A DNA stretch of 64,000 nucleotides. Source: Pandoraea anhela (GTDB lineage Bacteria > Pseudomonadota > Gammaproteobacteria > Burkholderiales > Burkholderiaceae). Every line of letters starts with the position of its first letter. Positions within the stretch are counted from its first letter, which is position 1. The notes beneath the pieces were generated by a model. The model was not told the origin of the DNA. It did not search any database and saw nothing but the letters and a program-made list of their open reading frames with translations. The position numbers and the translations under genes are program-made. The stretch spans positions 62,001 through 126,000 of the forward strand of contig NZ_CABPSB010000006.1 of NCBI RefSeq assembly GCF_902459655.1, given 5' to 3'. This document shows, piece after piece, positions 28,020 to 64,000 of this stretch.

Positions 28020-28022
28020 GTC

Positions 28023-29120: not shown

Positions 29121-29136
29121 AAAACTCTCAGTCAAC

Positions 29137-48751: not shown

Positions 48752-48768
48752 ATATATTGAGGTCCATC

Positions 48769-50193
48769 ATGCCTCTTACCGATCTGGAAGTTCGACGTGC
48801 AACGCCACGGGAAAAAACATACCGGATCTATGATGGTCGCGGTATGTATCTTGAAGTTGCGCCCACAGGCGGAAAATACTGGCGCTTAAAGTATCGATTC
48901 AATGCTCGCGAAAAAAGGCTGTCGTTTGGTGTTTATCCGGACGTAACGCTAGCTCACGCACGCGGGAAGCGGGACGAAGCACGGGCCATGCTGGCTGATG
49001 GGATCGATCCCAGCCAAGCCAAGAAGGAGAAAAAACGCCTCGCCCAATTGAGCTCAGCCAATACATTCAGGGTCGTTGCGCTGGAATGGTTTGAGAGACA
49101 AGCGCCAGGATGGACCGACAGCCACTCGGAAAAAATTATGGGGCGCCTCGTGAAAGATGCGTTTCCCTTGCTGGGGCCGCGCCCGATAGCAGAGATAACT
49201 GCGCCAGAAGTTCTCGCAGTGTTGCGCCGTGCCGAATCGCGTGGCGCAAACGACACCGCACATCGGCTCCATCAAACTTGTGGGCAAATTTTCCGTTATG
49301 CGGTTGCAACTGGTCGTGCGATGCGAGACGTGAGCGTTGATCTCCGCGGCGCTTTGCGGCCCAATACACACACGCATTTCGCTGCTCTTACCGACCCTCA
49401 CAAAGTGGGTGAAATGTTGCGGGCGCTAGACGGATTCGCCGGCACGTTCGTTGTTGGCGCCGCATTGCGACTAGCGCCTCTGCTGTTCGTCCGCCCCGGG
49501 GAGCTGCGTCAGGCGGAATGGTCACAGTTTGATCTAGATCGTCGCGAGTGGCGCTACGTCGTGTCGAAAACAAAAACGGAACATCTTGTCCCACTCGCGA
49601 CTCAGGCTGTAGAAATCCTGAGAAAGCTGCATGGCCTTACTGGAAACTGGCGATTCGTGTTTCCTGGCCGAGATCGCAGGAAGCCAATGAGCGCAGCGGC
49701 AATAAACGCCGCATTACAGCGACTAGGATTTGATACACAAACCGAGATCACTGGCCATGGCTTTCGCGCTATGGCAAGAACGATTCTTCATGAGCGCCTT
49801 CGCTTTCCGGCGGAAGTGATAGAGCATCAACTTGCGCACCGAGTACCGGATATTCTTGGCACTGCTTACAACAGGACGAGATTCCTTGATGACCGAGTCA
49901 AAATGATGCAGGCGTGGGCTAATTATCTCGATCTACTAAAGACAGGACATGAAAGGAATAGTGAGGAAGTCAGAGACATGAAGGCTGCGACGATCCACGT
50001 CACCGAAGGCCTCAACTGCCAAAATTTGCTTGAGGCGTTCCTATCCGGCGCAGATCTCGGTAGCGGTGGTTCCGACAATAGCGCCCACCCACTCCCCTAC
50101 TTAGCTGTCGCGAAGCTTCTCCGCTATTTCGCGCACGCATTTGCGGTTGCGCACTACGCCGATAGACTCAACCATAAATCCAAGGCGCATTAA
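48769..50193 (+). CDS. Tyrosine recombinase/integrase, P4-like (second)
   Basis: From ATG 48769 (GAGG upstream) the protein has 474 residues. The P4-type N-terminal domain (DUF4102; MPLTDLEVRRATPREKTYRIYDGRGMYLEV) is followed by a SAM-like core-binding domain and the catalytic residues R242 (FVRPGELR), H330-x-x-R333 (GHGFRAMAR), H353 and Y367 (GTAYNRTRF). After the normal end near residue 390 there is an extra tail of about 84 residues with no recognised domain. It could move a different nested element or act with the first integrase. Confidence 0.92.
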   Translation: MPLTDLEVRRATPREKTYRIYDGRGMYLEVAPTGGKYWRLKYRFNAREKRLSFGVYPDVTLAHARGKRDEARAMLADGIDPSQAKKEKKRLAQLSSANTFRVVALEWFERQAPGWTDSHSEKIMGRLVKDAFPLLGPRPIAEITAPEVLAVLRRAESRGANDTAHRLHQTCGQIFRYAVATGRAMRDVSVDLRGALRPNTHTHFAALTDPHKVGEMLRALDGFAGTFVVGAALRLAPLLFVRPGELRQAEWSQFDLDRREWRYVVSKTKTEHLVPLATQAVEILRKLHGLTGNWRFVFPGRDRRKPMSAAAINAALQRLGFDTQTEITGHGFRAMARTILHERLRFPAEVIEHQLAHRVPDILGTAYNRTRFLDDRVKMMQAWANYLDLLKTGHERNSEEVRDMKAATIHVTEGLNCQNLLEAFLSGADLGSGGSDNSAHPLPYLAVAKLLRYFAHAFAVAHYADRLNHKSKAH

Positions 50194-50566
50194 CGCAGTC
50201 CGTGGCCGAAACGAGCCGCTAGGATTTTCACCCGATCGCCGCGCCGTTTTTTACATCTCGCCTGCGCCCAACTGAACTGCGGCTCTCACTCTCCATCTGA
50301 CCAACGGCACATTGTCCTCCGTTAGTTGCGTGCCGACATTGCCAAAGCAAATCGCAGATTCGCCTGAGCGCAACGCCGAAGGCTCGCACGGCCTAACAAC
50401 TTCTCCAGTTGCCACCCTTCACGCGCCCCGATTTTTTTGTCAGCATTGCGCTCGAATGAGTCGATGCGTCTCACGAAGAGAACAACTACTGAATTTCAGC
50501 AGCAATTTAAAAGACCTATCTACCTACTATTCGACCGAACTGGTGAATTCCACCAGTTCGGCTAAA
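50194..50566. promoter_or_regulatory. Leader of the sspBCD-like operon with a 27-bp dyad
   Basis: This 373-bp gap holds no convincing gene; the open frame through it (from 50312) has no family match that I can see. A perfect 11-bp inverted repeat, CCGAACTGGTG (50535-50545) and its complement (50551-50561) around AATTC, ends 5 bp before the ATG at 50567. A possible -10 (TACTAT) is at 50525-50530. The dyad is therefore well placed as an operator at the transcription start or as a hairpin over the ribosome binding site. Confidence 0.6.
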
Positions 50567-51493
50567 ATGACGAGCATGATGCCCGACCAAAGCGCTCCAA
50601 AAACCACGCCCGCTCACTTCTCCGGCCACGAGACGTTTCCATTGCGTCAGATGTGGCTCAAGAAGGTTTGCCATGAAGCAATCGACGGCCAAATTAGCAA
50701 GACTGTCTTCACCGATGGCAACGCTATTGCGACCTTTGGGGTTGGCAAAAACATGGTGGCCTCGATTCGGCATTGGGCGTTAGCTTGCGGTGTCATGTCC
50801 GAGGCAGGCGATCATTTCAAAATGAGCAGTCTTGCCTACGAAATTCTAAAAGACAGTGGACTTGATCCCTATGCCGAGAACCCGTCATCGGCATGGCTTG
50901 CACATTGGCAACTTGCGGGTCGATGCTATCGCTCGACGACTTGGTATTGGTTGTTCAATCACGTCACAGCTCCGTCGTTTACGCGCCAGGAGCTCGAAGA
51001 GCCGTTGGCGCGCTATGCGCGCCAACTTGACCCCAAACATCGCCTTTCCGCGTCGACGCTGTCTAGAGACTTGGAGACATGTTTGCGTAGCTATGCGCCG
51101 CGTGTGGCTGGAGGGTCGCCGGAGGATTTCGCCGAACCATTGCTAGGCGAGCTAGGTCTGCTGCAAGAGATTCACAAAGGCCAATATGCATTTCGACGCG
51201 GCCCTAAAGCTTCTTTGCATGACGGCATCTTTGCCTACGCCTTAGTCGATTTTTGGAACCGCGAAGCGGGTGGGCAAAGTTCGCTAGCTTTTGAGACCAT
51301 TGCTTACGCTGATGGCTCCCCCGGTCGCGTTTTCAAACTTGACGAGGAGTCGATCGCCCAACGGCTGATCGCGCTCTCGGACTTCACCAATCGCAAACTC
51401 GAGTGGACCGACTCTGCCGGCCTTCGCCAGGTCCACCGAAAGGACCTGACGAAGGACGACCACAAAAACATGATCAGACGCGCTTATGACTGA
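50567..51493 (+). CDS. sspB: DUF4007 protein, SspB-like (DNA phosphorothioation nickase component)
   Basis: From ATG 50567 the protein has 308 residues. It starts with AHFSGHETFPLRQMWLKK (about 16-33), the signature of DUF4007, followed by FGVGKNMVASIRHWALACGV and AYEILKDSGLDPYAENPSSAWLAHWQL, and continues to AYALVDFW and ETIAYADGSPGRVFKLDEESI. In characterised Ssp systems the DUF4007 protein SspB is reported as the DNA-nicking component that acts with SspC and SspD to put sulfur in the DNA backbone. It overlaps the next gene by 8 bp. The assignment rests on domain and gene order; no alignment was run. Confidence 0.82.
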   Translation: MTSMMPDQSAPKTTPAHFSGHETFPLRQMWLKKVCHEAIDGQISKTVFTDGNAIATFGVGKNMVASIRHWALACGVMSEAGDHFKMSSLAYEILKDSGLDPYAENPSSAWLAHWQLAGRCYRSTTWYWLFNHVTAPSFTRQELEEPLARYARQLDPKHRLSASTLSRDLETCLRSYAPRVAGGSPEDFAEPLLGELGLLQEIHKGQYAFRRGPKASLHDGIFAYALVDFWNREAGGQSSLAFETIAYADGSPGRVFKLDEESIAQRLIALSDFTNRKLEWTDSAGLRQVHRKDLTKDDHKNMIRRAYD

Positions 51494-54400
51494 CAAAAAG
51501 CAAGTGGTTCTGTCGGACATCGTCCAAATTTCGCGCCAATATCAGCGCTCTATCCGCGTCGACGCCGACATTGGACGTGTAGACGCCCTCTCCGGCTACA
51601 TCTGCCATGCCACGGCTGGCGCCGTGGTCGATAGCATGTGCGTACAACTCTCGGGGACCAACCAACGCAGCTTTACTTGGACCGGCCCCTTTGGCGGAGG
51701 TAAGAGCTCGCTGGCCGTCGCGCTGGCAAGTGCGCTACATCCCGACAAGAACCTTCGGGTGAAAGCGCGAGAAGCTTTGCACTTGAATTCCAAGCCCGCC
51801 TTCGACAGGGCCTTCCCGGTCCGCAAAGGATGGTTGATCGTGCCGGCCGTGGGACGACGCGGGAGCGTCGTCGCTGCACTTAACGCAGCCCTTCGGCAAG
51901 CGCAGGGTAAGACAGTGGACGGCCGCAACAAGCCTAACAGCCAAACCCTTATCGCCGAATTGCTCGTGGAAGCGCAGAGCCGTCCACATGACGGTGTGCT
52001 GGTCCTCATCGACGAAATGGGAAAGTTCCTGGAAGCCTCAGCGCTAGGTTCGGGGGACGATGTCTATTTTTTCCAAGAACTCGCCGAAGCGGCCGCACGC
52101 TCAGACGGTCGTTTGGTGGTAGTCGGCGTACTGCATCAATCCTTCGCGCAATATTCCGCTCGGCTTGGCATCGACACTCGTGACGATTGGGCTAAGGTAC
52201 AGGGCCGCTATGTAGACCTGCCTTTCGTAGCAGCCAGCGACGAAATTGTAGAACTTATCGGTCGCGCGATCGAAACCGAGCGGCGGCCGGACTGGATTCC
52301 CGAGACATCAAAGGCGATCGCCGACGCTATCCGCTCGCGCCGCCCCGCTGCTGGGCAAGGCTTCGCCAACGCGTTGGCCGGCTGTTGGCCGCTACATCCG
52401 GCCATGGCAGCGCTACTTGGGCCAATCTCCAAACGACAATTCGGGCAGAACGAGCGCAGCACATTTGGTTTCCTGTCATCAGTTGAGCCGTATGGCTTTC
52501 GTTCCTATCTGAACTCGACCCTTGTCAGTGAAGCAACTTGGTATCGCCCCAGCGACTACTGGGACTACCTTCACTCAAATCTTGAGCCTGCCATTCTCGC
52601 GTCCCCTGACGGTCATCGTTGGTCGCAAGCGGTCGAAGCGATCGAGCGAGCCGAGGCTAAGACAGGTGATCCGCTGCTGGTGAGTCTGATTAAGAACATC
52701 GCGATCATCGACCTCTTCCGTGCCGGTTCTGGCTTAGCGGCCGACGCTGCCGTGATCAAGGTGCTCTTTTACGACAAGACACAAGAGGAACTTGACAACG
52801 CGCTGCAGCAGCTCTCCGCTCTCAAAATCGCCCTTTACAAAAGCTATACCGGCGCCTGGTCGGTCTTCGAAGGCAGCGATTTCGACATTGACCAGGCCAT
52901 CGCGCAATCTCTAGCCGCCTCGCCTGGCGTTGACTACGCACGCCTCGCGCAGCTCATGGGATTACATCCGGTAGTCGCCAAGCGCCACTACCACGAGACG
53001 GGCTCCATGCGTTGGATGGAGCTGACTCTGTGCAGCATCGAGCAGGCCGAGAAGATCTCCACCGACTTCCGCCCACGTAAGGGCGAGTTCGGAACATTTA
53101 TCCTAGCCCTGCCCGACAAGGGTATGAGTCCACGGACCGCTAGCCTTCGTGCGCAAGCGTGTTCGAAGCTCCGTCCATGGCCAGTGCTGGTCGGCATTCC
53201 TGAGAATCATGCCCGAATCGCAGAGCTTTCGGCCGAGCTGGTGGCATTGGAGCAGGTAAAAGAGCGCCATGAGCTGTCCGGAGACGCTGTGGCTCGCCGC
53301 GAAGTCTATGCGCGGCTAGCAGCAACTCGGGCGAATCTGGAAGACCAGCTCCAAGCCGCCGTGTCGTTGGCGAAGTGGCACGACGGGACGGGCGCCATCG
53401 TCGAACCTAGGTCGAAGCTATCGCCGGTGGCGTCTGGGCTCGCCGACGAGCTTTTCAGTGCGCCACCGGAGGTATGGAGCGAACTGGTTAACCGCGATAG
53501 CATTTCTAGCAACAGCGTGAAAGCCCGTCGTGATCTGCTGCATGCGATGATCGACTCCGAGGACCGAGAGGCACTCGGCTTCGAGGGCTTCCCCGCCGAA
53601 CGGGGGCTCTACGAGACACTGCTCAAGAGCACCGGGCTGCATCGCCAAGATACCTCCGGCGCGTGGCGTCTAGTTGCGCCGGGCAATGGATCGGCAAGCA
53701 GCTTCGAGCCCCTTTGGGAGGAAACTCGTGCACTCTTCTCGGACGGCGAAACCCGAGTGGGTGCCCACGAGATCTACGCACTGTGGAATGCACCCCCCTT
53801 CGGAATGAAGCAGGGAATCCAGCCGGTGATCCTCACGGCATACATGCTTGCGCATAAGGCCAATATCGCCGTCTACAAGGACGGGATGTTTGTGCCTCGA
53901 CTCACAGATTTCGATATCGACGAATTGTTGCAAGACCCCGACCGCTTCTCATTGCGTTGGGTAGCTATCGACGAGGACAAGAATCGAATCCTTAATGGCA
54001 TCGCGAAGCTACTGGCAGAGATTGGCGAGAGTGCGGACGCAGCCGATCCGCTTGAAGCTGCTCGCGGCTTGGTAGCCATGGTCTTCAACCTGCCAGAATG
54101 GGCTCGAAGGACGCAGCGCCTGGGCGAAACAGCTAAGGCCATGCGCGACATGCTCGTGAAGGCCAGCGATCCGCACAAGGTACTGTTCGTCGACCTGGCA
54201 TCGTTGCTGAACGCCGCTGACGGCAAGTCCTATGTAAAAGCTCTTCGCACACCACTGCAGGAGCTGGCAAGCGCCTATGGAAAAATGCTCGCTGAAGTTG
54301 AGGGGAAGATGCTGGAGGCACTCGACGCGCGCAGGGATGATCTTGAAGCGTTGCGCCAACGTGCTCGTTCCGTCTCTGGCATTTCTGGCGACTTGAGATT

Positions 54401-54821
54401 GGATGCGTTTGCGACGCGCTTGGCCAACTTCGACGGAGAAAGAGCCTCGCTTGAGGGCATCCTAAGCCTTGCTGCCGAGAAGCCTCCCCGCGATTGGGTG
54501 GATCGGCACATCGACGCGGCCATCTTGGAGCTAACAAAGTTCGCCCGACGTTTCCGCGAAGCTGAGGCTTTTGTGGCAGTGCAAGGTCGCGAGGCACACA
54601 GCGAAGCCATCGCTGTCGTCATCGGCGCAGGGTCAAATACTGAGACAATTTCGCGCTCGTTTGCAATCTCGGACCGTCATCGTCAGATCGTGGAGTCCAA
54701 GGCTGACGAAGTCGCCTCAATGCTTGAACGCCAAGGTTTAGGAACCGATATATTGCTGGCAATACTGGCCAAGGCTGGGATGAAGATAGCGTCTATCGAC
54801 AAGGAGACTGCAAATGGCTGA
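51486..54821 (+). CDS. sspC: Large P-loop ATPase, SspC-like
   Basis: The 1,111-residue protein has an N-terminal ATPase domain with Walker A GPFGGGKS (67-74) and Walker B VLVLIDEMGK (173-182). The remainder is long and mostly helical, without a named domain I can see, and includes coiled-coil-like stretches near AELSAELVALEQVKERHEL and EVEGKMLEALDARRDDLEALRQ. Size, position between a DUF4007 gene and a PAPS-reductase-like gene, and short overlaps (8 bp each side) match SspC, the ATPase of Ssp phosphorothioation. A BREX BrxC-type ATPase would be the main alternative, but no other BREX genes are present. Confidence 0.82.
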   Translation: MTDKKQVVLSDIVQISRQYQRSIRVDADIGRVDALSGYICHATAGAVVDSMCVQLSGTNQRSFTWTGPFGGGKSSLAVALASALHPDKNLRVKAREALHLNSKPAFDRAFPVRKGWLIVPAVGRRGSVVAALNAALRQAQGKTVDGRNKPNSQTLIAELLVEAQSRPHDGVLVLIDEMGKFLEASALGSGDDVYFFQELAEAAARSDGRLVVVGVLHQSFAQYSARLGIDTRDDWAKVQGRYVDLPFVAASDEIVELIGRAIETERRPDWIPETSKAIADAIRSRRPAAGQGFANALAGCWPLHPAMAALLGPISKRQFGQNERSTFGFLSSVEPYGFRSYLNSTLVSEATWYRPSDYWDYLHSNLEPAILASPDGHRWSQAVEAIERAEAKTGDPLLVSLIKNIAIIDLFRAGSGLAADAAVIKVLFYDKTQEELDNALQQLSALKIALYKSYTGAWSVFEGSDFDIDQAIAQSLAASPGVDYARLAQLMGLHPVVAKRHYHETGSMRWMELTLCSIEQAEKISTDFRPRKGEFGTFILALPDKGMSPRTASLRAQACSKLRPWPVLVGIPENHARIAELSAELVALEQVKERHELSGDAVARREVYARLAATRANLEDQLQAAVSLAKWHDGTGAIVEPRSKLSPVASGLADELFSAPPEVWSELVNRDSISSNSVKARRDLLHAMIDSEDREALGFEGFPAERGLYETLLKSTGLHRQDTSGAWRLVAPGNGSASSFEPLWEETRALFSDGETRVGAHEIYALWNAPPFGMKQGIQPVILTAYMLAHKANIAVYKDGMFVPRLTDFDIDELLQDPDRFSLRWVAIDEDKNRILNGIAKLLAEIGESADAADPLEAARGLVAMVFNLPEWARRTQRLGETAKAMRDMLVKASDPHKVLFVDLASLLNAADGKSYVKALRTPLQELASAYGKMLAEVEGKMLEALDARRDDLEALRQRARSVSGISGDLRLDAFATRLANFDGERASLEGILSLAAEKPPRDWVDRHIDAAILELTKFARRFREAEAFVAVQGREAHSEAIAVVIGAGSNTETISRSFAISDRHRQIVESKADEVASMLERQGLGTDILLAILAKAGMKIASIDKETANG

Positions 54822-55656
54822 GCGTCATGTTCTGGGGATTTCCGGTGGCAAGGATAGTGCCGCGCTGGCGGTCTACATGCGTGACCATCACCCCGAGCTC
54901 GATATTGATTACTTCTTTACCGATACCGGCGAGGAACTACCTGAAGTTCACGAATTTCTCGGCAAGCTTGAGGGGTACCTAGGAAAACCTATCGCGCGAC
55001 TCAATCCGGGTCGTGACTTCCGATTCTGGTTGCGCCAGTACAACCATTTCTTGCCGAACCCTCAAAGCCGTTGGTGCACACGAAAGTTGAAGCTTGCGCC
55101 ATTCGAAGACTGGGTGAAGCCTTGGCTGGCGTCGGGCGACGTAGTCACTTCGTACGTGGCGATACGGGCGGACGAAGACTATCGTGAAGGCTACGCGGCT
55201 AAAGCTGACAATCTGTTTGTGAAGCTGCCCTTCCGCGAAGCCGGCATCGACAAAGCAGCTGTGATCGACATTCTGGAGAATTCTGGTGTCGGTTACCCCA
55301 AGTACTATGAATGGCGCTCGCGCAGCGGCTGCACGTTTTGCTTCTTTCAGCAGAAAATCGAGTGGGTCCGCCTAAGGGATAAACACCCGCGAGCGTATGA
55401 AGAAGCGAAAGCCCTCGAGAAGGACGCTTTGGAACACGGGGCACCCTTCACTTGGTCAAAGGGCGAATCGCTCGTTGACATGGAGCAGCCGGAACGCGTA
55501 GCGGAAATCGAGGCGGAATACGAGATCCGACGCGTTCGCATGCGCAAGAGTATCCCCATTAATCCTTTGCGGCCTGTGAAGGCCTGCCCCGAGGACATCG
55601 ATGATGTCTACGGCGTGGATGAAGGCAACGGCTCCTGCAACGTCTGTCACAAGTAA
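54814..55656 (+). CDS. sspD: PAPS-reductase-family ATP pyrophosphatase, SspD-like (DndC-related)
   Basis: The 280-residue protein has the PP-loop SGGKDS at residues 10-15, DYFFTDTGEELPEVHEFL, C88 in RWCTRKLK, a C173-x2-C176 pair in GCTFCFFQQK, and a C-terminal C275-x2-C278. The cysteines could hold an iron-sulfur cluster as in DndC. By family it adenylates the target position using ATP so that sulfur can be inserted, working with a cysteine desulfurase. It overlaps sspC by 8 bp. Single-protein assignment to DndC instead of SspD is possible, but the DUF4007 and large-ATPase partners favour Ssp. Confidence 0.88.
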   Translation: MAERHVLGISGGKDSAALAVYMRDHHPELDIDYFFTDTGEELPEVHEFLGKLEGYLGKPIARLNPGRDFRFWLRQYNHFLPNPQSRWCTRKLKLAPFEDWVKPWLASGDVVTSYVAIRADEDYREGYAAKADNLFVKLPFREAGIDKAAVIDILENSGVGYPKYYEWRSRSGCTFCFFQQKIEWVRLRDKHPRAYEEAKALEKDALEHGAPFTWSKGESLVDMEQPERVAEIEAEYEIRRVRMRKSIPINPLRPVKACPEDIDDVYGVDEGNGSCNVCHK

Positions 55657-56169
55657 ATCAAGGGCCGACGGGAAGGATAAGCACCGACAACGACCCGTCC
55701 CTCCCCTGCGGCCCCACACCTTTCTGCTCGGAGACTCGTAGTTTCGCTGAACACTTGCTGGAAGTTGATGCGGCTGGGGACTACCTTGAGAAACACAACG
55801 CCCTACGTGAGAGAGCATGGTACAGCGACGATTGGGGCCGAGACGATCGGTGATTGGCTCAGCTTAGCCGCTCAATGTGCCGCCGGCTGAGCTTTGTAAT
55901 CGCGACCGCATCGAGCCATGCTCCGCCGCTTTCAACCTTAAGGCGTGATGCGATGTAGGGGGGGAATGGCGTGCCCGTCGTCCCCTGGTTGGACCTAGGC
56001 TCCCTTAGGTACGCACCAACGGTCAGTCGATCTCCGCTACGGTGAATACCGCCGCGCAGTCCCCTTTCGCTTTTTGTGCGTACCACACATAGACACGAGA
56101 TTACTGAGACTCTTCTGACCGGACGGCCCTTACGAAGCAACGGCCTCTGTGCGATGTCCCCTATGCAGG
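55657..56169. other. Convergent intergenic region between the two defence operons
   Basis: About 500 bp separate sspD from the nuclease stop. The left part (55657-55858) contains a short plus-strand open stretch ending at 55850 with protein-like text (AGDYLEKHNALRERAWYSDD) but no start codon, perhaps a gene remnant. GACGGG (55667) and CCCGTC (about 55700) could form a weak hairpin after sspD. The right part is covered by the small minus-strand ORF described separately. Confidence 0.35.
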
Positions 56170-56173
56170 TCAT
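55859..56173 (-). CDS. Hypothetical small protein, possible fifth gene of the restriction-like operon
   Basis: An ATG at 56173 overlaps the TGA of the nuclease gene in an ATGA arrangement, like other couplings in this operon. The 104-residue product has no recognised domain. Its C-terminal half (TVGAYLREP... PPYIASRLKVESGGAWLDAVAITKLSRRHIERL) looks protein-like with codon use similar to neighbours; the N-terminal half is rich in Arg and Cys and less convincing. It may be a real small partner, a remnant or chance. Confidence 0.38.
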   Translation of the reverse strand: MTCIGDIAQRPLLRKGRPVRRVSVISCLCVVRTKSERGLRGGIHRSGDRLTVGAYLREPRSNQGTTGTPFPPYIASRLKVESGGAWLDAVAITKLSRRHIERLS

Positions 56174-57252
56174 AACAGGCTCAGATACTTGTCCAGATTG
56201 GAGACGGAGATGGACTGAGTCTGACCGGACGTCAAGACGGAAAACTCGTCCAAGCCAATCGTGATCGTCGCCCTCTTGACAGAACACAGAGCTGCCTGGG
56301 CTGCGTACTTGACGAACAATTCGACTTGGTAGTCGCCGTGAGGCCACTCATTCGCCTCGTACCCCGGCCTTTGAACTGGGACGAAGAGAACGGACTGTTG
56401 TACCGAAGACTGCGGGGTGATCGCGAAATCTCCAAATGGACGCCCAAGCCGTCGTCGCGTAGCGTATTGCTCCTCTGGTTTCTCGGGAACGACGCGCTCG
56501 GGGCGGTACCGCATCTCCCGCGTGGCCGACCACACGCGCAGCAGAAACATCTCCACGACGGCTGTGGAGGCTCCGCCGTTGACGACGGTAAGCGGGAGTA
56601 TCAGCTCAAAAGCCCGGTCTGAAACCACCACTGGCCCTGCAATTTCCAGCACGCTCCACAATACATTGCAGTTCGTAGTCAGGCGTTGGCTGACCGCGTG
56701 CGGATAGGAGGCCGTGATTCCGCTCAACAGCCATCCGTCGAACTCCTCACGCGGCATCCGCTTTCCGCGTATCGCCGCCTGTAACAAGCGAGCGACGAGC
56801 TCATAGATCAACGACTCGCGCAGGGGCAGTGGAAGCGGCTCGATGGACTTCGCGGTAAGGTAGCGATCTACCTTCGTGATGGCCTGGTCGAGCAGCGCCA
56901 GCGTGTCCATCGACGTTGGAGTGGGCACCTCGACGTCATCGAAGGGCGCGTCATCCAAGACGGCAGCTGCGATCGGTCCAGCCAACATCAGCTGGTACTT
57001 GTCTGCAGCGTCGGAGTCTTTGAGCTCTTTGCACCATGCGACCACATCGCCTTTGCCGATCTGATTTTTGGAGGACTTGACCTGCTGAGCAAGAGTCGAG
57101 CCGTCTGCGTACTCCCAGTAGATGTCCACCTTGTCGTTATCAGAGTCCGGCTCTAGCGTAACAGCCGTCCATTGTCCGATCGCCCAAAGTGAGTCGAGCA
57201 AACAGATAAGGGTTTGGACCGCAAACCCGCGGATCGCTTCGCGCCCGCCCAC
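56170..57252 (-). CDS. PD-(D/E)xK nuclease-domain protein (DUF4297/Cap4-like)
   Basis: I use GTG 57252, 2 bp after the preceding stop (360 residues); ATG 57297 overlaps the upstream gene by 43 bp. The N-terminal domain has REAIRGFAVQTLICLL, then LEPDSDNDKVDIYWE and AQQVKSSKNQ. Aspartate 43, Q57 and K59 form the D-x(n)-Q-x-K core of the dsDNA nuclease domain found in CBASS Cap4 and many restriction systems. The remaining 250 residues are unrecognised and could sense modified DNA or bind partners. It is the presumed DNA-cleaving member of the minus-strand operon. Confidence 0.75.
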   Translation of the reverse strand: MGGREAIRGFAVQTLICLLDSLWAIGQWTAVTLEPDSDNDKVDIYWEYADGSTLAQQVKSSKNQIGKGDVVAWCKELKDSDAADKYQLMLAGPIAAAVLDDAPFDDVEVPTPTSMDTLALLDQAITKVDRYLTAKSIEPLPLPLRESLIYELVARLLQAAIRGKRMPREEFDGWLLSGITASYPHAVSQRLTTNCNVLWSVLEIAGPVVVSDRAFELILPLTVVNGGASTAVVEMFLLRVWSATREMRYRPERVVPEKPEEQYATRRRLGRPFGDFAITPQSSVQQSVLFVPVQRPGYEANEWPHGDYQVELFVKYAAQAALCSVKRATITIGLDEFSVLTSGQTQSISVSNLDKYLSLL

Positions 57253-57254
57253 GG

Positions 57255-59018
57255 CTAGTTCTCGATCTCGAAGAAGTCCATAGCCATTCGCCCCCACTGA
57301 ACGCGAGTATCCTCAATCGATATTCGCATCTTTTCGCTCGGCGCTTCATCTTCCATACGAGCCCAAGCGGCGATAAGCGACAGAACCTCCCTAGCGTACT
57401 GAGCCTCCGGCCCGTCTTCTCCTTGTAGTGCCTCGAAAAGCCGGGAGTGCACCGGATGACGACTGTTCAGGGTAACCAGGATCACACCCCCGGAAGTGGA
57501 GACGTCGAAGATGTGCGAACCAGACATATCGGCGTGCTTGAAGCGAAATTTAATTTTCTTGCTGACATAGTCCACTGCGAGTTCTAGAGCCTTCGCCTCC
57601 TCCACGCCATCTTGAACGAAGTCGGCGGTCAGCGCGGATGCGCGTTCGTCGGGGGAGGCGTGTTCATCCTTGTCACTCCGACCGGTGTCCCCAACCCGCT
57701 CTCTGCGTCTCATCACAGAATCGGTGGCCGCTTTCTCGGCCTTCTTCTCGGCGCGCTCTTTGGTGGACTGCATTCGCTCACCTTCGCGCATCTTGGCCAC
57801 CTGTGCGCGCATCGAGTTCAACAGCTTCTCGATCTCCCGGCTGATACGGTACATGGCAAGCCGTGGGTCACGATCCTGCTCGAGCGTCTCCTGATAATCT
57901 TTCACGCTGAGTGCCTCTTCCAGCGCATCTTCCTCGATGCTCAAGCGTGTGAAACCTGTCGCTGCCTGCTTGTTGTTCGTAACGCCAAAGACGTCATCCA
58001 AGCCCGGGTCGAACTGCACCTCGATCCCCCACCATCTCTCGCGCGTGTCATATGAGTTCGTGAAGCTGTGGTTGAGCTCCAGCTCCCGCCCCGATCTCAC
58101 GACCGAAATGCCCTGATTTTTTTGCGCGTGCTGCCCAATGGGTTTAGTCCCTCCTTCACGCCGCGCCTCCGGCTTACAAATCGACGCCATGATGGTCACA
58201 GGGTGATCTGTGCCGCCATGCCCGATATGAAGAACCAGCGGTTGCCCAAACGGCACGAAGGCCGGCTTCTGATCGAAGGGCGCGGGGGCATTGGTGCCGG
58301 ACATCAAGTAAAGCGGATCGTTTGGCCGCACAAAGCTCTGATAGACCGTCGCCCTGGTCTTGCTCTCATAGGCGGCAAGGCGAATTCGAACCGACTTGTC
58401 GTTAATGAAGTGCCGATACACGCGTCCGCTGATGAACTCCGTGTGACGCAACAGTGTCGTACTTTGCTTCCAAGAGATGCGGTCTAACTTGCTCCAGACA
58501 ACCAAGGTGCCGTGCTCTTCGAGATTGCCTGCAATCAATGACCGCCATTCAGAAGGGATCTCAGAGGGCTTAGGCTCAGGAACCTCTGTCATTTGCCCGT
58601 CCTGAATTTCCTGCACGTCCAAGTAAGCATGATGAACCGATCCACCTTGCCACGTCCAGACATCCACCCTCTTGCATTGAGAGATTGAAGAGTTTGGCAA
58701 TCCCATCCCGAACTTGCCGATACCCGTTTGCTGAGCCTTGTCAAGGCGCGAACCGTTGCCAAATTGTAGGGCTTTCCTGAGCAGGATCGGGCTCATGCCG
58801 CTGGCGTTGTCGTAGACTGCTAGGCGGGAAATCTGACGTCGACCTCCGGTCGGGACCTCATCGATACAGATCACCTCGACTTCGGTGCGGGATTGGGTGC
58901 CTTCTCCTGCTTGGATCGCGTTGTCAATGAGCTCGGCCAACGCGTGCGCGGTGTCGCGATAGCCCGAGCTTCGCATGGCAGAGATCGACAGGTTTTGGGG
59001 AATGATGGGAAAGGACAT
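57255..59018 (-). CDS. GHKL (HSP90/MutL/MORC-like) ATPase
   Basis: ATG 59018 has a perfect AGGAGG (59023-59028) that overlaps the stop of the upstream helicase-like gene. The 587-residue protein carries the Bergerat ATP fold: ELIDNAIQA (E29, N33), DNASGM (70-75) and GIGKFGMGLPNSS (99-111). An S5-like domain follows, and a long charged coiled coil at about 400-470 (REGERMQSTKERAEKKAEKA). Such MutL/MORC-like ATPases occur in restriction-type loci beside helicases and nucleases. It probably acts as an ATP-driven DNA clamp. Upstream frame from 59201 is not needed. Confidence 0.85.
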   Translation of the reverse strand: MSFPIIPQNLSISAMRSSGYRDTAHALAELIDNAIQAGEGTQSRTEVEVICIDEVPTGGRRQISRLAVYDNASGMSPILLRKALQFGNGSRLDKAQQTGIGKFGMGLPNSSISQCKRVDVWTWQGGSVHHAYLDVQEIQDGQMTEVPEPKPSEIPSEWRSLIAGNLEEHGTLVVWSKLDRISWKQSTTLLRHTEFISGRVYRHFINDKSVRIRLAAYESKTRATVYQSFVRPNDPLYLMSGTNAPAPFDQKPAFVPFGQPLVLHIGHGGTDHPVTIMASICKPEARREGGTKPIGQHAQKNQGISVVRSGRELELNHSFTNSYDTRERWWGIEVQFDPGLDDVFGVTNNKQAATGFTRLSIEEDALEEALSVKDYQETLEQDRDPRLAMYRISREIEKLLNSMRAQVAKMREGERMQSTKERAEKKAEKAATDSVMRRRERVGDTGRSDKDEHASPDERASALTADFVQDGVEEAKALELAVDYVSKKIKFRFKHADMSGSHIFDVSTSGGVILVTLNSRHPVHSRLFEALQGEDGPEAQYAREVLSLIAAWARMEDEAPSEKMRISIEDTRVQWGRMAMDFFEIEN

Positions 59019-59026
59019 GTGGCCTC

Positions 59027-60664
59027 CTAGGTATGCAGCGTGGACCAAGTGCTCAACGACTTCACCCAACCGGCATCGGCTTGTGAGTCGGCAGCCACAA
59101 TGAGTCTGAGGGGCGGCAGATCGGCCTCTCGGGCCTGAACAAGCCGCCCAATCGTGGATAGGAACGCTGCCCGGGACTTGCTTGGCGACGCCATCACACA
59201 TACGTAAATTTCAGGAACAGAGTTCCCGGGAAGTAGGAACCCGTGGGCGCACAAGACCTTCTCCTCTCTGGCAACGAATTTTTGCAAGGCAAGGTCACGT
59301 GCTGCTGGAGATTCATCCGCGGTTACGGCTCTTGCCTTCACGCCCTCGACCCGCAAAAGGCCGGCGAACAGCCTCGCGTTCTCAGCTGTTGTTGCATAGA
59401 ATACAACCCGTCCCCGACCCTTGGACTCGTCCTTCAGAATGTCCAAGAGTTGCTCGTTGCGTTCAACGTTGTTGCCCAGCTCGCTCACGTAGGTGTGGTC
59501 GAAGTCAAGTGTGTCGTCGGACGGGGCACCTGCGGAGGCACTTGTGGACGACGTGCTCGTGAGATTTACCACGGTACCGTCGATTTCCGTGAAATCTCCA
59601 ACCTGACGAAGCGACTGCAATCCGTTGTTCGCCGCGATTGTGATGCAAGCGTCTGGAAAGGCTTCCATCAGGGCACTCCGAGCAGGTCCCGGAGGAATGG
59701 CGGTGCCGGATGCGGCTAGTATTCCCACCGCGCTGAATCCCCCACCCGCGGACATCTTTCGGACGATCTCGGCTCCGACAGGGTGAACGCGACTTTCCGC
59801 ATCTGCGAAGACTGCAACCGATGTGACGGATCCGAGCTTTTCAAGAGCCGAGTCCTCCTTGTTGAGTTGGAGAATGTCGATGACCGCTATCGCCCCTCCG
59901 AGTTGATCGAGGTCGCGCGCCGGATGGTCACCGTAGAGCTGAAAAATGGTGGTGTCGCGCGAACCCAGCTGACGCCATACCTCTTGCAATTCGATGAAAG
60001 CCTCGTCACACATGGCTGCACCTGGCGCTAGCCAGATGACCGACCTATCGTCGGGTTCCGAACGGTAAAGATCGAGCGCTGCCGTCGCGACGAGCCGAAG
60101 CTTTCCTGCTCCGAACGGCATATGGACCAAAACGGATACGGGCGGGCGGGCAATGGCTCGACGAAGCTCACGAAAGGCGTTTAGTTGATGCGCATGGAGC
60201 TTGTGCGAGGCAACGGTTTTCTGAGATCCCTCGGATGGTTCAAGCGGCTCCTCAAGCTCGTCAGTCTCCACGCCGTACCATCTGTCAAGAAGCTCCAAGT
60301 TGCTTGGCGCCGCGTCGAATTCGATGGCGCTCAATGTTCGGAGAGGCGAGATTGCCGGCATCTGAAGCAGATCGCACAATTCGGAGGCCTCCGAATTGTG
60401 CAGTTTGGACAGCAAGAGGCTTCGAATTTCCCGCCTTCGCAATGCGCCTCGTTCGCCATGCAAGCTAACGATGAAATAGGCCAGCCCCGTTCGACTGGTC
60501 ACATCTGTACCCATCTTGCCGAGCAACGCCATGATCGAGGGGCCCAACAAGTTAGTGAGCGCGGTCGCGTCGTTTCTGGCGAGGTGTTCGACGAGTCGCG
60601 TCGTCGTGGTTACACGAGACGATCCCGAGGTTGATGAGGCGTCTGGAATGTCAAGCGGTGCCAT
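59027..60664 (-). CDS. SF2 helicase-like protein with degenerate motifs
   Basis: The 545-residue protein has an N-terminal 140 residues without recognised domain, then a helicase-like core: Q-motif-like AHQLNAFRELRRAI, Walker A-like HMPFGAGKL (181-189; the Ser/Thr after K188 is Leu), motif Ia VIWLAPGAAM, motif II FADAES (286-291, in place of DExH), motif III-like AASGTAI, a second RecA domain with RVVFYATTAENARLFAGLL, and IGRLVQAR near motif VI (in place of QxxGRxxR). It overlaps the FtsK-like gene by 14 bp. It is probably a structural or weakly active translocase subunit. Confidence 0.78.
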   Translation of the reverse strand: MAPLDIPDASSTSGSSRVTTTTRLVEHLARNDATALTNLLGPSIMALLGKMGTDVTSRTGLAYFIVSLHGERGALRRREIRSLLLSKLHNSEASELCDLLQMPAISPLRTLSAIEFDAAPSNLELLDRWYGVETDELEEPLEPSEGSQKTVASHKLHAHQLNAFRELRRAIARPPVSVLVHMPFGAGKLRLVATAALDLYRSEPDDRSVIWLAPGAAMCDEAFIELQEVWRQLGSRDTTIFQLYGDHPARDLDQLGGAIAVIDILQLNKEDSALEKLGSVTSVAVFADAESRVHPVGAEIVRKMSAGGGFSAVGILAASGTAIPPGPARSALMEAFPDACITIAANNGLQSLRQVGDFTEIDGTVVNLTSTSSTSASAGAPSDDTLDFDHTYVSELGNNVERNEQLLDILKDESKGRGRVVFYATTAENARLFAGLLRVEGVKARAVTADESPAARDLALQKFVAREEKVLCAHGFLLPGNSVPEIYVCVMASPSKSRAAFLSTIGRLVQAREADLPPLRLIVAADSQADAGWVKSLSTWSTLHT

Positions 60665-63600
60665 GCGCTGATTTGGGAGAGTTGTCGTGGGAAATCGCCG
60701 TCACTGCTGCTGCGATGTCATCGTCGGACAGAAAGGGGGCTTGCGCGAACACCAGCCCCTGCTCCCCGTTGAGCTTGGCAGCAAGGTGCCCACGACCAAG
60801 CAGGAGCTCAGCGCCCGGTCGGTCGAGCGCGATCTTAGAGGTGGCCTCACTGGAAACTTTGAGGATGAGGCGGTTGCCAAGGTTTTCGCGCAATTGCATC
60901 GGCATGACGTCCTTGTCGGGGCGCTGTGCTGCGAAGATGAGATGGATGCCCGCAGCGCGGGCCTTGACGCCCAATCGCTGCACTGCAGCGCTCACGGCAG
61001 ACTTGTACGCGTCGTCGAGCATCCAGTCCGCGAATTCGTCATGCACGAGGAAGACCATGGGCAAACGTTCGTCGGCCGAGACCTTCGCGTTGTAGGTTGG
61101 CAGGTCGCGCGCGCGCGCCTTAGCGAAGGCGCGATAACGCTCCTCCATCTCCTGCACCAGCGCCTCGAGGACTTCAGCTGCCTTTTCCTTTGTCGTCACA
61201 ATCTCACTGCGCATGTGCGGAAGGTCGGCCAGCGGCGCGTAGTCCACGCCCATCTTCGGATCGATCAGGATAATCTGCGCAAGATCCTTCGAGTTGGTCG
61301 CGGCGATGTCCAAGAGCAGCGCCTGGATCAGTACCGACTTGCCGCTGCCGGTGGCACCTGCCACCAAGGAATGCGGCTCGTGAGACGAGAGGCCACCGAA
61401 CTCTGCGCCGAGGTTCAGATACAGCAACGCGCCGTTGATCTCCTGGAGCCCCAAAAGAAATGACGTGTTGATGCCGGCGACGTTGCGATTGAACTCACGA
61501 CGCGACCACAGCTCCCAAAGCGATACCGCTTGACGCTTGGAGCCCGCGACCGTCACCACAATCTCGCCAGGCTTGGGCTGAACCGTCACTAAATTGATAG
61601 CGTGAGTGGTCAGCAATTGGGTGCGCTTGTTCTCGATATCCTCGACGCGCAGCCTGTCTGAGCCTGCCAATCGCACCAGGCAGCCATTCGGCGTCAAACG
61701 CACGCCTAGAATTGCAGCCTGCAGACCGTAGCTATTCAGCGCGGACTTAAGCTTCTTTTTCACCTCCTCCGCCCACGCCTCTCGCTCGGCGTCCGCTTGC
61801 GCTCCGCCCGCAAATTTGGCGGCTACCAAAGCTGAAAGCGAAGAGCCAAGATCGGTGGGCAATGCTGGGGCTGAGGCCGGCACCGACGCAGCAGCGTTGG
61901 TTGAGGCTTCGATTCGTTCTTGCACAGGTACCTCGTGCTCAGCAGCAGCGGGGCCGCTCGATTGAGGCAAGGTGCCTGCATCCGCCACATTGGCTGGCGC
62001 TTCGTCGTCGGGGGACTCTGAGGGACCATTGACGAGCTGACCTATGGCCGCAAGCCACGGCACCCGCGCAGCCGGCTTCTTGAAACCGTGTCCAGCCCAT
62101 GGTTGGTGGGGGCCAAGTCCCGCCCGGGCTTCGGAACCGCCATTCCCATTCGCATAAGCCTCGCCAAGCTTTCGTAGATCATGCCTGTCAAAAACTTCCT
62201 GCCAAGCTTGAACGCCTTCAGCGTCGTCGAGCAGCTCTTGGTCGGAAGCAGACGCGGAGCCTGCATCCGAGGTATGAACATAGACCTGCGAGTAGCCGCG
62301 GAGCGAAATCTCCACGTCGCCTTCGCGCAGCTTCGCCCTCGCCCGCTCCATGAGACCCGTCATGCCAGGCGGGATCTCGGCGTCGATAAGCATATCCGCC
62401 AAGCGAGCGAGCCACACGTCGCGATCGAGGCGACCCGGGTCGCCAAAGAGAGCCTCCCGGAACATGCCCAACGTTGACAGGAGTTGGTCCTTAGAATCAC
62501 GGCGGGCCTTAGCCAGTCCATCTGCCCCAACATACTTCGACTCTACGATCGAAATAACGATACGGATACCCTCGTCTCGCTCTTCGACATTAAGTGCAAG
62601 GATGTCGGCGATGCGGCTTTCAGGTTGTGACAGCCAGCTCGCGTAGTCGTCGAGCAGAAAGTATGCAGTCAGTACTTGACAACCAGCGGCGGAAGCCTTG
62701 AACTCCTCTGACAGCAAGTAGCGGCTGAGGACCAAGCCGATCATCTCGCCTGCAGAGACACCGCGCTTAGCCGCGCGAAGCACAATGTCACCGGAAATAG
62801 AAAGCGCGTCGCGCTTCGCCTTGGCGGCCGCAGCCTCAAGTTGTTCGGGATCGAGCTGAAGATTCAGCTCTTCCAAACGACGGCGCACAAGCACGCCGAG
62901 TAGCCGTAGCTCAGAGGTCGAGCTGACGATCATGTTGCGGCCGTTGGTCGAGCCACGACGGTAGCGTACCACCGTGATGTCGTTGTGTTGGAGCTGACGT
63001 TTATCGAGCAGCTCATCGTAGGTCGCCACCCATTCTGCTAGATCGTGCGCGTCCTTGATCATGCCAGCCAAGGCGGCGCTTTGAAGCGAGATACGACGCG
63101 CGGGCAGGTATCTCTCGTCGGGCGAAGCATCGGTTTCGCGGTCGACAGCCGCAACGGCGGAGACATAAGCCCAGCCCGACGCGGTCTGCCAAGGGCATGT
63201 CAAAAATGTCGTCGATTTGAGTTCGTTCTCGCCCGAGACACTACGATAGGACCATCGCGATGGGGCATGGTCCAAGTTGGGACGGTCGTTGGTCCACGGA
63301 ACCGGGAGCCATTCCGACTGTGCCGCACGGGCGACCACGTCATGCAAGAAAGCCACGTCGAAGGCTTTAAATCCCTGCTCACTTTCGCCGGGTGTAGCCG
63401 AGATCGGAGTCACGGAAATGCGCAACTTCGAGATGAAATTGTCGCTCGTCTCGCTAACCACTGGCAGGTCAGGATCATCGCCAGCCTTGTTCACCAGCTC
63501 GCCATAAACGCTTCGAAGCTTGGCCGGATCCGAGTGGCGCACCGACACGCTGCATTGGAGCTTTCCATCGGCTTGAATCGACGAGAGCTCCCGTACAGTC

Positions 63601-64000
63601 GCAAGGGGCAACTCTGCGGCATCGGCGTTGTAGAGCACTACGCTCAGATTGGAGGCCTCATGCGGCTGCAATCCGACGTAGCGCTCCAAAAGTTCGCGTG
63701 CTTGCTTTGCGGCGGCGGCTGGTTCGACATCGGTCATCGCCTCTTCGGTGCCGCGTGTGGGCGACTCCAAAAGACTATAGCCGTTGACCGTGCTGCTTTC
63801 CGAGACGAGCGCTGAGGTACTCGTGCGCTTGAGGATAGCGATCTCAGGATAAAACGGGTGTGCAATCTCGTCGGAGAGCTCCCGCATAAAGATTTCTCGG
63901 TCGCCATAGAGAATGCTGTCGCTTGACAGCAAGTGAGTGGCGAAACTTGCCACGCGCCGGGACTTCACCGCTAGCGCCTTCATGCGCTCAGGATGCCACG
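60651..64000 (-). CDS. FtsK/HerA-type DNA translocase, DptH/DndH-like (probably partial)
   Basis: The last in-window ATG is at 63983, giving 1,110 residues, but the frame stays open to base 64000 with no clear ribosome binding site, and related DptH-type proteins are larger, so the true start is probably outside. The C-terminus is a clear FtsK-type motor: Walker A AGATGSGKSVLIQALLLDI (about 875-893), ILIDPKMGVDY, Walker B PMVFLVHDEFADW (about 975-987) and IHLIFAAQRPDKDVMPMQLR. The N-terminal two thirds have no recognised domain. It is the first visible gene of the minus-strand operon and is likely its DNA-pumping subunit, as DptH is in Dnd-dependent restriction. Confidence 0.85.
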   Translation of the reverse strand, partial: WHPERMKALAVKSRRVASFATHLLSSDSILYGDREIFMRELSDEIAHPFYPEIAILKRTSTSALVSESSTVNGYSLLESPTRGTEEAMTDVEPAAAAKQARELLERYVGLQPHEASNLSVVLYNADAAELPLATVRELSSIQADGKLQCSVSVRHSDPAKLRSVYGELVNKAGDDPDLPVVSETSDNFISKLRISVTPISATPGESEQGFKAFDVAFLHDVVARAAQSEWLPVPWTNDRPNLDHAPSRWSYRSVSGENELKSTTFLTCPWQTASGWAYVSAVAAVDRETDASPDERYLPARRISLQSAALAGMIKDAHDLAEWVATYDELLDKRQLQHNDITVVRYRRGSTNGRNMIVSSTSELRLLGVLVRRRLEELNLQLDPEQLEAAAAKAKRDALSISGDIVLRAAKRGVSAGEMIGLVLSRYLLSEEFKASAAGCQVLTAYFLLDDYASWLSQPESRIADILALNVEERDEGIRIVISIVESKYVGADGLAKARRDSKDQLLSTLGMFREALFGDPGRLDRDVWLARLADMLIDAEIPPGMTGLMERARAKLREGDVEISLRGYSQVYVHTSDAGSASASDQELLDDAEGVQAWQEVFDRHDLRKLGEAYANGNGGSEARAGLGPHQPWAGHGFKKPAARVPWLAAIGQLVNGPSESPDDEAPANVADAGTLPQSSGPAAAEHEVPVQERIEASTNAAASVPASAPALPTDLGSSLSALVAAKFAGGAQADAEREAWAEEVKKKLKSALNSYGLQAAILGVRLTPNGCLVRLAGSDRLRVEDIENKRTQLLTTHAINLVTVQPKPGEIVVTVAGSKRQAVSLWELWSRREFNRNVAGINTSFLLGLQEINGALLYLNLGAEFGGLSSHEPHSLVAGATGSGKSVLIQALLLDIAATNSKDLAQIILIDPKMGVDYAPLADLPHMRSEIVTTKEKAAEVLEALVQEMEERYRAFAKARARDLPTYNAKVSADERLPMVFLVHDEFADWMLDDAYKSAVSAAVQRLGVKARAAGIHLIFAAQRPDKDVMPMQLRENLGNRLILKVSSEATSKIALDRPGAELLLGRGHLAAKLNGEQGLVFAQAPFLSDDDIAAAVTAISHDNSPKSAHGTA

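Follow-up and report, generated by a model that had tools for sequence, protein, structure and literature searches.

In single-strand phosphorothioate (PT) systems, the SspBCD proteins modify DNA and SspE or SspFGH serves as the restriction partner. According to the excerpts of PMC8092258 on which we draw, SspBCD modifies the site 5'-CpsCA-3', and SspFGH damages DNA without PT. Each of the three sspFGH genes is needed for protection in Escherichia coli, where SspFGH protects even alone. The same excerpts count 2,211 of 2,678 sspBCD loci without sspE and without sspFGH, and ask about other restriction partners. Here, we analyze a stretch of 64,000 nucleotides (nt) of Pandoraea anhela (contig NZ_CABPSB010000006.1, positions 62,001 to 126,000), which as a whole we call the window, where sspBCD face a minus-strand operon. 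While PT defence by SspBCD and SspFGH is already known, this operon has three more genes behind sspH, encoding a helicase-like protein (HEL), a GHKL ATPase and a nuclease (NUC). We name this trio HGN. In many phyla it occurs together with sspBCD, and the flanks that we fetched mostly lack SspFGH. The locus is probably a PT-based restriction-modification (R-M) island with two restriction arms in one operon, SspFGH and HGN, the latter being a separate PT-linked module.

The sspBCD genes and the facing operon

The modification genes are on the plus strand. They are sspB (50567..51493, 308 amino acids (aa); PADLOC SspB 392 bits, Pfam DUF4007 301 bits), sspC (51486..54821, 1111 aa; a BrxC-like ATPase with PADLOC SspC 1481 bits and Walker A GPFGGGKS), and sspD (54814..55656, 280 aa; PAPS-reductase-like, with PADLOC SspD 449 bits and an SGGKDS motif). 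Their open reading frames (ORFs) overlap and form one operon, convergent with the minus-strand genes. The first-pass annotation of this DNA had described these genes as Ssp modification genes facing FtsK, SF2-like, GHKL and nuclease genes, and the PADLOC and Pfam matches confirm both the identities and the layout. We have not seen sspA in the locus, but the genome has 24 matches to Aminotran_5 (aminotransferase-V), the best with an E-value of 3e-89.

The minus-strand genes are transcribed in the order sspF-sspG-sspH-HEL-GHKL-NUC, with overlaps of 4, 7, and 14 nt followed by gaps of 8 and 2 nt. Such tight spacing makes a single transcription unit likely. The gene sspH (60651..66086, minus strand, 1811 aa; PADLOC SspH 2594 bits, FtsK_SpoIIIE 124 bits, Walker A and B intact) encodes an FtsK/HerA translocase with an FtsK-like C-terminus and is cut by the window end at 64000. 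Reading the contig onward reveals sspG (66080-67633, minus strand; PADLOC SspG 754 bits) and sspF (67630-69567, minus strand; PADLOC SspF 849 bits, Walker A present) just beyond the window, and the three SspFGH proteins are thus present together. The HGN genes follow on the same strand: HEL (59027..60664, 545 aa), an SF2-type pseudo-helicase with 24 bits to Helicase_C and 21 bits, below the cut-off, to ResIII; the MORC-like GHKL ATPase (57255..59018, 587 aa), with 65 bits to HATPase_c_3 and its catalytic motifs retained; and NUC (56170..57252, 360 aa), a putative PD-(D/E)xK nuclease. The starts of GHKL (ATG at 59018) and NUC (GTG at 57252) were set later than those of the longest ORFs and are probable. 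None of the three HGN genes of the window has internal stops.

These identities modify the earlier description of the operon. That it would be a restriction arm fits the presence of sspFGH in it, and that it would not be SspE agrees with the lack of an SspE match among the 10 locus proteins scanned with PADLOC, the remaining genome not having been searched for SspE. The proposal of a new arm standing in place of SspFGH did not survive, because SspF, SspG, and SspH are all in the contig, and we rejected HGN as their replacement. The suggestion that the subunits differ from SspFGH holds for HEL, GHKL, and NUC, which the excerpts of PMC8092258 do not mention, but not for the FtsK/HerA gene, which is SspH; hence one of the four minus-strand genes of the window matches an SspFGH subunit. 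The assignment of HEL as SF2-like is right for the family, but its catalytic motifs are lost.

Association of HGN with sspBCD

To survey the neighbourhoods of HGN, we searched genomes, a single one for each species, with the GHKL alignment; of the 295 relatives obtained, the best 80 were retained. They are found in Pseudomonadota, Cyanobacteria, Chloroflexi, Planctomycetes, Actinobacteria, Bacteroidota, Bacillota, Acidobacteria, Armatimonadetes, Gemmatimonadetes, and Elusimicrobia. The gene profiles derive from the locus of the window together with 12 others (11 on plasmids and one own-genome locus) and could miss distant SspF, SspG, or SspE, but distant SspFGH sets were nonetheless detected at 290-851 bits. 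The helicase profile is present in 77 of the 80 loci and at least one of sspB, sspC, and sspD in 67. For 48 loci the fetched stretch extends at least 8 kb on each side (full flanks), the 32 copies in truncated contigs being left out of this set. Among these 48, 44 hold sspB, sspC, or sspD in the flank, and in three more (L038, L039, L102) the contig has sspD 10-11 kb away from GHKL, at or beyond the fetched edge, resulting in a total of 47. The only full-flank locus without these genes, L086, lacks sspD in the whole genome. HGN thus occurs mostly with sspBCD, and not mostly without them, the outcome that the first-pass annotation had named as damaging to its proposal. SspFGH accompanies 8 of the 48 full-flank loci, an SspE-like gene 6, and neither of them 34; the SspE-like gene of L052, which we checked, scores 910 bits as SspE. 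Among the 59 loci with both sspD and the helicase gene, sspD is ahead of the helicase on the same strand in 34, and within 300 nt in 18 of these.

The same association is observed in genome samples. In 398 genomes of Pseudomonadota, sspD was found in 11 and a strong GHKL match (at least 367 bits) in 6, all of them among those 11. The strong matches are 1.6-6.7 kb from sspD, one of them (in G585) covering positions 3-467 of the 600 in the profile; the next matches are partial and have at most 90 bits. When the genome of the window is excluded, 5 of 5 strong GHKL genomes have sspD, for 0.13 expected (p = 3e-9). Of 244 cyanobacterial genomes, 19 have a strong sspD (at least 382 bits), 10 a strong GHKL (at least 853 bits), and 9 both; in 8 of these 9 the two genes are on one contig within 11 kb, and in G756 they are on different contigs. 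Excluding the centre genome, 8 of 9 strong GHKL genomes have sspD, for 0.67 expected (p = 1.4e-9). Partial GHKL matches in the two samples reach at most 140 bits, well apart from the strong ones. With both samples pooled and the centres excluded, HGN is found in 13 of the 28 sspD-positive genomes and sspD in 13 of the 14 genomes with a strong GHKL.

These counts depend on how weaker sspD matches are treated. Two Pseudomonadota genomes at 270-291 bits were counted as sspD-positive, as sspB and sspC adjoin sspD, and 11 cyanobacterial genomes whose sspD-like matches are weaker (270 bits or less) were left out. At the best site of each of these 11 there is no sspB, and an SspC-like piece is found in 3. 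If they are counted, HGN is present in 13 of 39 genomes and the cyanobacterial p-value becomes 1.3e-7. Five small cyanobacterial genomes (G827, G769, G786, G991, and G794; 1.7-2.2 Mb) have 3-7 copies of a PAPS-reductase protein distantly resembling SspD (231-270 bits). Such multiplicity is unusual for a modification enzyme; the neighbourhoods of the best copies in the 11 genomes are our loci L192-L202.

Among the 11 sspD-positive Pseudomonadota genomes, the partner is HGN in 6, SspFGH without HGN in 3, PbeA/PbeC in one, and a HerA-type ATPase with an SspC-like ATPase in one. Of the six HGN genomes, that of the window also has SspFGH, and the other five are of the PLD type described below, including L140 that also has an SspE-like gene. 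Hence, HGN is present in 6 of these 11 genomes and SspFGH in 4. The genome with PbeA/PbeC, L144, has SspABCD beside PbeA (617 bits) and PbeC (168 bits) at 10431-14902. Locus L011 is probably alike; at 25390-30033, next to sspABCD, it has genes for a helicase, for phosphorothioation-associated protein 4, and for an AAA ATPase. PbeABCD, which was described with Dnd, therefore seems to pair with Ssp in L144 and probably in L011. The last genome, L137 (1-9164), has sspBCD beside a 1262-aa HerA/TraG-type ATPase, in part DndH-like (180 bits) and in part SspH-like (69 bits), together with a protein of 301 aa and a second, 1506-aa ATPase that is SspC-like (60 bits). This ATPase set is possibly another restriction partner of Ssp.

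In the fetched flanks, the relation of HGN to SspFGH is restricted to one subtype. Among the best 80 of 295 relatives, SspFGH is found in the flanks of 8 of the 14 loci with a PD-(D/E)xK nuclease and of none of the 44 with a PLD nuclease. There are two arrangements. The order F-G-H-HEL-GHKL-NUC, with the HEL frame overlapping the end of sspH, is found in the window and in L026, L027, L028, L031, L032, and L036, and the order HEL-GHKL-NUC-F-G-H, with the trio just ahead of sspF, in L038, L039, and the Agrobacterium plasmid locus L009. This suggests that HGN and SspFGH were associated repeatedly; the GHKL tree requires six changes for SspFGH. The genomes of L029, L033, L034, L035, and L037 have a dead helicase, and the SspH model matches nothing in them beyond FtsK domains (191 bits at most). 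As the PD-(D/E)xK subtype also occurs in genomes without SspH, HGN and SspFGH can each stand alone. We counted L010 as lacking SspFGH, as it has only a 58-bit SspH remnant; the contig of L030 lacks SspFGH, yet a full match to SspH is found at the edge of a contig of its genome. In L036 (Polaromonas), GHKL and NUC are 86% and 85% identical to those of the window, and SspC and SspD 61% and 68%. Since the restriction proteins are far closer than the modification proteins, the two parts may have been shuffled.

HGN is also found in plasmids. Of 49 plasmid records matching GHKL we describe the 40 listed. Among these listed matches, 12 records have a GHKL at least 39% identical to that of the window, and all 12 are also among the 15 records matching the helicase. 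We examined 11 of the 12 neighbourhoods: sspB, sspC, and sspD are present by profile in 9, and in the loci of Geminocystis and Cyanobacterium HL-69 the profiles detect sspC and sspD. SspFGH was found in the neighbourhood of Agrobacterium only, with an SspH remnant in Aminobacter. A Pleomorphomonas plasmid of 21 kb carries pieces of cysteine desulfurase with sspBCD and HGN. In the Agrobacterium locus, a gene of 482 aa (19164-20612) between sspH and sspD has no Pfam or PADLOC match. Loci L019 and L022 have genes of DndB, a Dnd-system family, beside sspBCD and HGN (Pfam DndB 31 and 108 bits).

We also examined six of the plasmid records whose GHKL is less than 28% identical to that of the window. 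Those of Rhodobacteraceae SC52 and Treponema have relatives of the helicase, GHKL, and PLD genes beside Ssp genes, whereas the records of Nocardiopsis, Roseomonas, Roseivivax, and Vibrio have no helicase-GHKL-PLD set beside Ssp genes. The Treponema locus (L204, 1438-11663) has in a row genes for DUF4007, an SspC-like protein, a cysteine desulfurase, a helicase, GHKL, and PLD, with no clear sspD (33 bits, at the edge of the fetched stretch). Its GHKL is 27.5% identical to that of the window, making it a distant HGN set. Phage records gave two partial GHKL matches only. The trio was not found in E. coli genomes by a search restricted to genes near each other, and a search with the helicase as a single protein in 369 genomes of the class returned the genome of the window and one match at 24% identity.

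Nuclease types, helicase motifs and locus surroundings

In the 80 loci we recognised a PLD nuclease in 44, a PD-(D/E)xK nuclease in 14, HNH without PLD in 9, only an SspE-like protein in 3, and none in 10. The HNH and DUF262 profiles were built from 7 and 4 loci, respectively, most of which were then counted by the same profiles. To compare these types, we read the motifs of 87 helicases, from 77 loci and 10 reference loci that include the window. Among the PLD-subtype helicases, 48 of 49 keep motifs I and II, the exception (L097) being an ORF truncated by the contig end; the five PLD-type helicases of the Pseudomonadota sample also keep motif I and DEAH. In contrast, GKL replaces the GKT of motif I and the DE of motif II is lost in all 17 helicases of the PD-(D/E)xK subtype, whose motifs V and VI are altered as well. 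In the window, motifs I, II, III, V, and VI of HEL are degenerate. In the 9 HNH-only loci (L055, L056, L062, L067, L072, L073, L089, L099, and L100), the HNH gene precedes the helicase and the helicase ORF always begins after motif I, with no P-loop in any plus frame up to 2.5 kb upstream; they are all cyanobacterial, may represent a single event, and include the fragmentary L067. The HNH protein of L056 matches HNH_4 (42 bits) and has a helix-turn-helix. Where HNH occurs together with PLD (L098, L020, L024), the helicase is intact, as are the 12 readable helicases of loci with no recognised nuclease or with only an SspE-like protein.

The nuclease of HGN is thus exchangeable: it is mostly PLD with an intact helicase, and otherwise PD-(D/E)xK or HNH alone with a helicase that lacks the ATP-binding motif. 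The motor is lost in 26 of 26 cases with PD-(D/E)xK or HNH alone and intact in 48 of 49 with PLD. The PD-(D/E)xK subtype forms one branch of the GHKL tree, with a support of 100 (17 of 95 rows), in a quick LG+G4 reconstruction that gave long-branch warnings.

The dead helicase of the window is under purifying selection. For HEL, the ratio of nonsynonymous to synonymous substitution rates (dN/dS) is 0.13-0.19 against seven relatives; dS is saturated (>1) in five of them, and the two unsaturated comparisons give 0.16 and 0.13. The values for GHKL are 0.07-0.09 (5 computable comparisons) and for NUC 0.07-0.11 (6 computable comparisons). At the positions reported, the invariant columns of GHKL include the motifs ELxDN, DNxxGM, and GxGxFGMG (11 of 11 and 40 of 40 rows), and its best PDB matches by sequence are MORC4 and MORC2 (24-30 bits). 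The N-terminal ~95 residues of NUC match PADLOC PDLC00735, which is labelled Effector, Endonuclease and which we take to be Cap4 (36-52 bits in three proteins; 52 bits in the window, residues 16-111 of the longer ORF). The motif E...D...QVK is kept in 17 of 17 aligned homologues of NUC. Beyond this domain NUC matched no model; it had no Pfam match, and no PDB match by sequence or nuclease profile. Three intact HGN helicases have PbeA as their best PADLOC match (76-94 bits). In NCBIfam the nearest model to the intact helicases is RadD, with TIGR04095 'dnd_restrict_1' lower (48-57 bits, two tested). HGN is not named by any model matched here from PADLOC, NCBIfam, or Pfam.

Upstream of sspB, an inverted repeat at 50535..50561, with perfect 11-nt arms CCGAACTGGTG and CACCAGTTCGG and a 5-nt loop, is a putative operator. 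It is located 5 nt before the sspB ATG and has the core ACTGG-N9-CCAGT at 50539-50557. The general core [AT]CTGG-N9-CCAG[AT] is present upstream of sspB in 27 of 72 loci, which are not independent, against 0.07 expected from mononucleotide shuffles, and absent in 45. In 2.05 Mb of loci it occurs 37 times, 30 of them being those upstream of sspB, and there is none at positions 60001-80000 in the numbering of the window. The dyad is not specific to HGN, since L137 has it without HGN. Each arm holds 5'-CCA-3', the published PT site, and SspB is described as a nickase crystallised as a dimer in the excerpts of PMC9240713 and PMC7188994. We hypothesise that SspB represses its own operon via this dyad, perhaps in a way sensitive to the PT state, making it a candidate for autoregulation. 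A promoter scan ahead of sspB found none.

The locus is bordered by further features. Two tandem tyrosine integrases (47332-48696 and 48742-50193; 126 and 209 bits to the phage integrase family) precede the sspB operon, and the G+C content is 0.56-0.60 from 48 kb onward, compared with mostly 0.60-0.66 earlier in the window. The tandem integrases and the drop in G+C indicate that the Ssp/HGN system is probably in an integrated island. Outside the window, at 69954-72557, a gene encodes a 'DNA phosphorothioation-associated putative methyltransferase' (TIGR04096, 569 bits). It is the only methylase recognised near the trio of the window; its profile matches 14 of the 80 HGN loci, and other methylases were not profiled.

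Proposed roles, rival explanations and comparison with known systems

We infer that HGN, composed of MORC-type components, is a restriction module linked to PT. Host DNA would receive single-strand PT marks from SspBCD, with a chromosomal cysteine desulfurase probably standing in for SspA, and the SspFGH arm would attack DNA lacking the mark. In the common form of HGN, a dimer of the MORC-like GHKL may act as an ATP-gated clamp on DNA, the SF2 helicase may translocate along or open the duplex, and the PLD nuclease would cut unless the PT mark is met or sensed. This picture of a clamp, a motor, and a cutter sparing PT-marked DNA draws on the GHKL motifs, on the likeness to MORC, PbeA, and RadD, and on the proposal of Iyer et al. 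that MORC-type proteins loop DNA between recognition and cutting sites (excerpts of PMC2292703). In the form found in the window, a PD-(D/E)xK nuclease would replace PLD, the helicase would work without ATPase, and the ATP-driven steps might come from GHKL and, where present, SspH. The low dN/dS indicates that the dead helicase is kept by selection, and it is therefore probably a scaffold that binds DNA or reads PT. A broader reading, to which we give slightly less than even credence, is that HGN is a major, perhaps the most frequent, partner of single-strand PT and explains many partnerless sspBCD loci, with a plug-in slot for the effector, a helicase ATPase serving the PLD nuclease in particular, and a dead helicase reading PT marks.

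Several observations weigh against a PT-linked role. In 13 of the 80 loci there is no sspB, sspC, or sspD in the fetched stretch. For 7 of the 13, mostly loci on contigs ending nearby, the whole genome has no sspD match. The cyanobacterial genome G962 has GHKL without sspD. Conversely, 15 of the 28 sspD-positive genomes lack HGN, which is hence not required for modification. Co-occurrence is in any case no proof of PT dependence. The putative PD-(D/E)xK fold of NUC is suggested by a short profile match and a motif. Finally, we rejected SspH as a general substitute motor for the dead helicase, as five genomes have a dead helicase without SspH.

One rival view is that HGN is a MORC-type system in its own right, acting in restriction or abortive infection, and that only a common location in defence islands and on plasmids connects it with Ssp. 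In favour of this, MORC/paraMORC GHKL proteins are known with SF2 helicases and nucleases from base-methylation R-M operons (excerpts of PMC2292703), a distant GHKL of a Roseomonas plasmid is near a cytosine methyltransferase and a helicase-related gene, 4 of the 6 distant relatives examined lack Ssp genes, and pairs of HEL and GHKL occur without genomic sspD in L086 (full flanks) and in L051, L091, and L103 (short flanks). However, 13 of the 14 sampled genomes with a strong GHKL also have sspD, 47 of 48 full-flank loci have sspB, sspC, or sspD, sspD is ahead of the helicase on the same strand in 34 of 59 loci, and a sharp gap separates the scores of strong and partial GHKL matches, making a mere sharing of islands very unlikely. 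Genomes L086, L051, and L091 belong to Microcoleus and Oscillatoriaceae, and in L091 the pair is followed by a small protein matching the PD_DExK model (171 bits). A further idea is that HGN is a safety or back-up suicide effector, triggered when SspBCD or SspFGH is blocked, rather than a PT-reading restriction enzyme. It would account for nucleases of different folds (PLD, PD-(D/E)xK, HNH), for the CBASS-like domain, and for the two subtypes whose helicase lacks the P-loop motif, and a back-up role has been argued for some Dnd-linked nucleases (excerpts of PMC10853773). We nevertheless find it unlikely, since the conserved core of GHKL and helicase and its frequent place right behind sspD point to a DNA-processing machine, and in 34 of the 48 loci with full flanks neither an SspE-like gene nor SspFGH is there for HGN to back up.

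The arrangement in the window raises the question of whether HGN is just an extension of SspFGH, adding accessory subunits to a single complex. HEL overlaps the end of sspH in the window and six other loci, the trio is just ahead of sspF in L009, L038, and L039, and SspFGH is in the flanks of the PD-(D/E)xK subtype only (8 of 14, against 0 of 44 for PLD). Yet this subtype exists without SspFGH in L029, L035, and L037 (full flanks) and in L033 and L034 (genomes checked), HGN is absent from 3 of the 4 loci with SspFGH in the sample of Pseudomonadota, and SspFGH, as stated above from PMC8092258, protects by itself in E. coli, so that we consider one complex distinctly unlikely. That the trio of the window is decaying and inactive, as the lost ATPase motifs of HEL could suggest, is extremely improbable given the low dN/dS of the three genes, the lack of internal stops, and the invariant GHKL and nuclease motifs.

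As a PT-linked module, HGN would offer a testable answer to the question of which partners serve sspBCD loci without sspE or sspFGH, and would link MORC-type ATPases, whose role in restriction is unsolved, to a modification measurable by mass spectrometry. Its loci also form a natural series in which active or dead helicases are combined with different nucleases, and HGN could be added to defence-system finders. Our literature search (open-licence papers; titles and beginnings of abstracts) found, among the matches listed, no coupling of Ssp phosphorothioation with GHKL. The excerpts of Rakesh et al. 2024 and of a 2026 BREX paper name no MORC or GHKL partner of Ssp, each term being found 0 times in both. 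The name 'SspH' is also used for a HATPase regulator of antibiotic production in Streptomyces, in a paper with no phosphorothioate term (PMC9137472).

Among known systems, MZA has in MzaB a MORC-like GHKL ATPase, like HGN. The match is weak, with 53-75 bits for GHKL in four proteins (66 in the window) against the NCBIfam curated cut-off of 850; no other Mza model matched the proteins scanned, and we rejected HGN as MZA. The likeness to CBASS concerns the N-terminal nuclease domain of NUC, which resembles that of a Cap4-type endonuclease effector, with no match beyond the domain. PbeABCD, described with DndCDEA, is PT-linked like HGN, and its PbeA joins a PLD domain and an SF2 helicase (excerpts of PMC6459918), whereas in HGN the PLD nuclease is a protein of its own, a GHKL ATPase takes the place of the SMC-like PbeC, and the pairing is with Ssp. 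HGN was rejected as a PbeABCD system: HEL of the window has 20 bits to PbeA, for 617 bits of the PbeA in L144, no PLD domain, and no PbeC match accompanies it. The MORC/paraMORC R-M operons share the combination of GHKL, SF2 helicase, and nuclease, the latter with a restriction-endonuclease or HKD fold (excerpts of PMC2292703), and HGN has the corresponding HATPase_c_3-type GHKL beside an SF2 helicase and a nuclease. According to these excerpts the operons are linked to base methylases, while HGN is tied to sspBCD; the text of PMC2292703 contains 'PAPS' 0 times and 'sulf' once, in a genus name. The closest system is SspABCD-SspFGH of Vibrio anguillarum FF-93 (PMC8092258), with the same sspBCD, sspF, sspG, and sspH and with PADLOC matches that are nearly full length. 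That system has three restriction genes in the excerpts available, whereas the operon of P. anhela has three more behind sspH.

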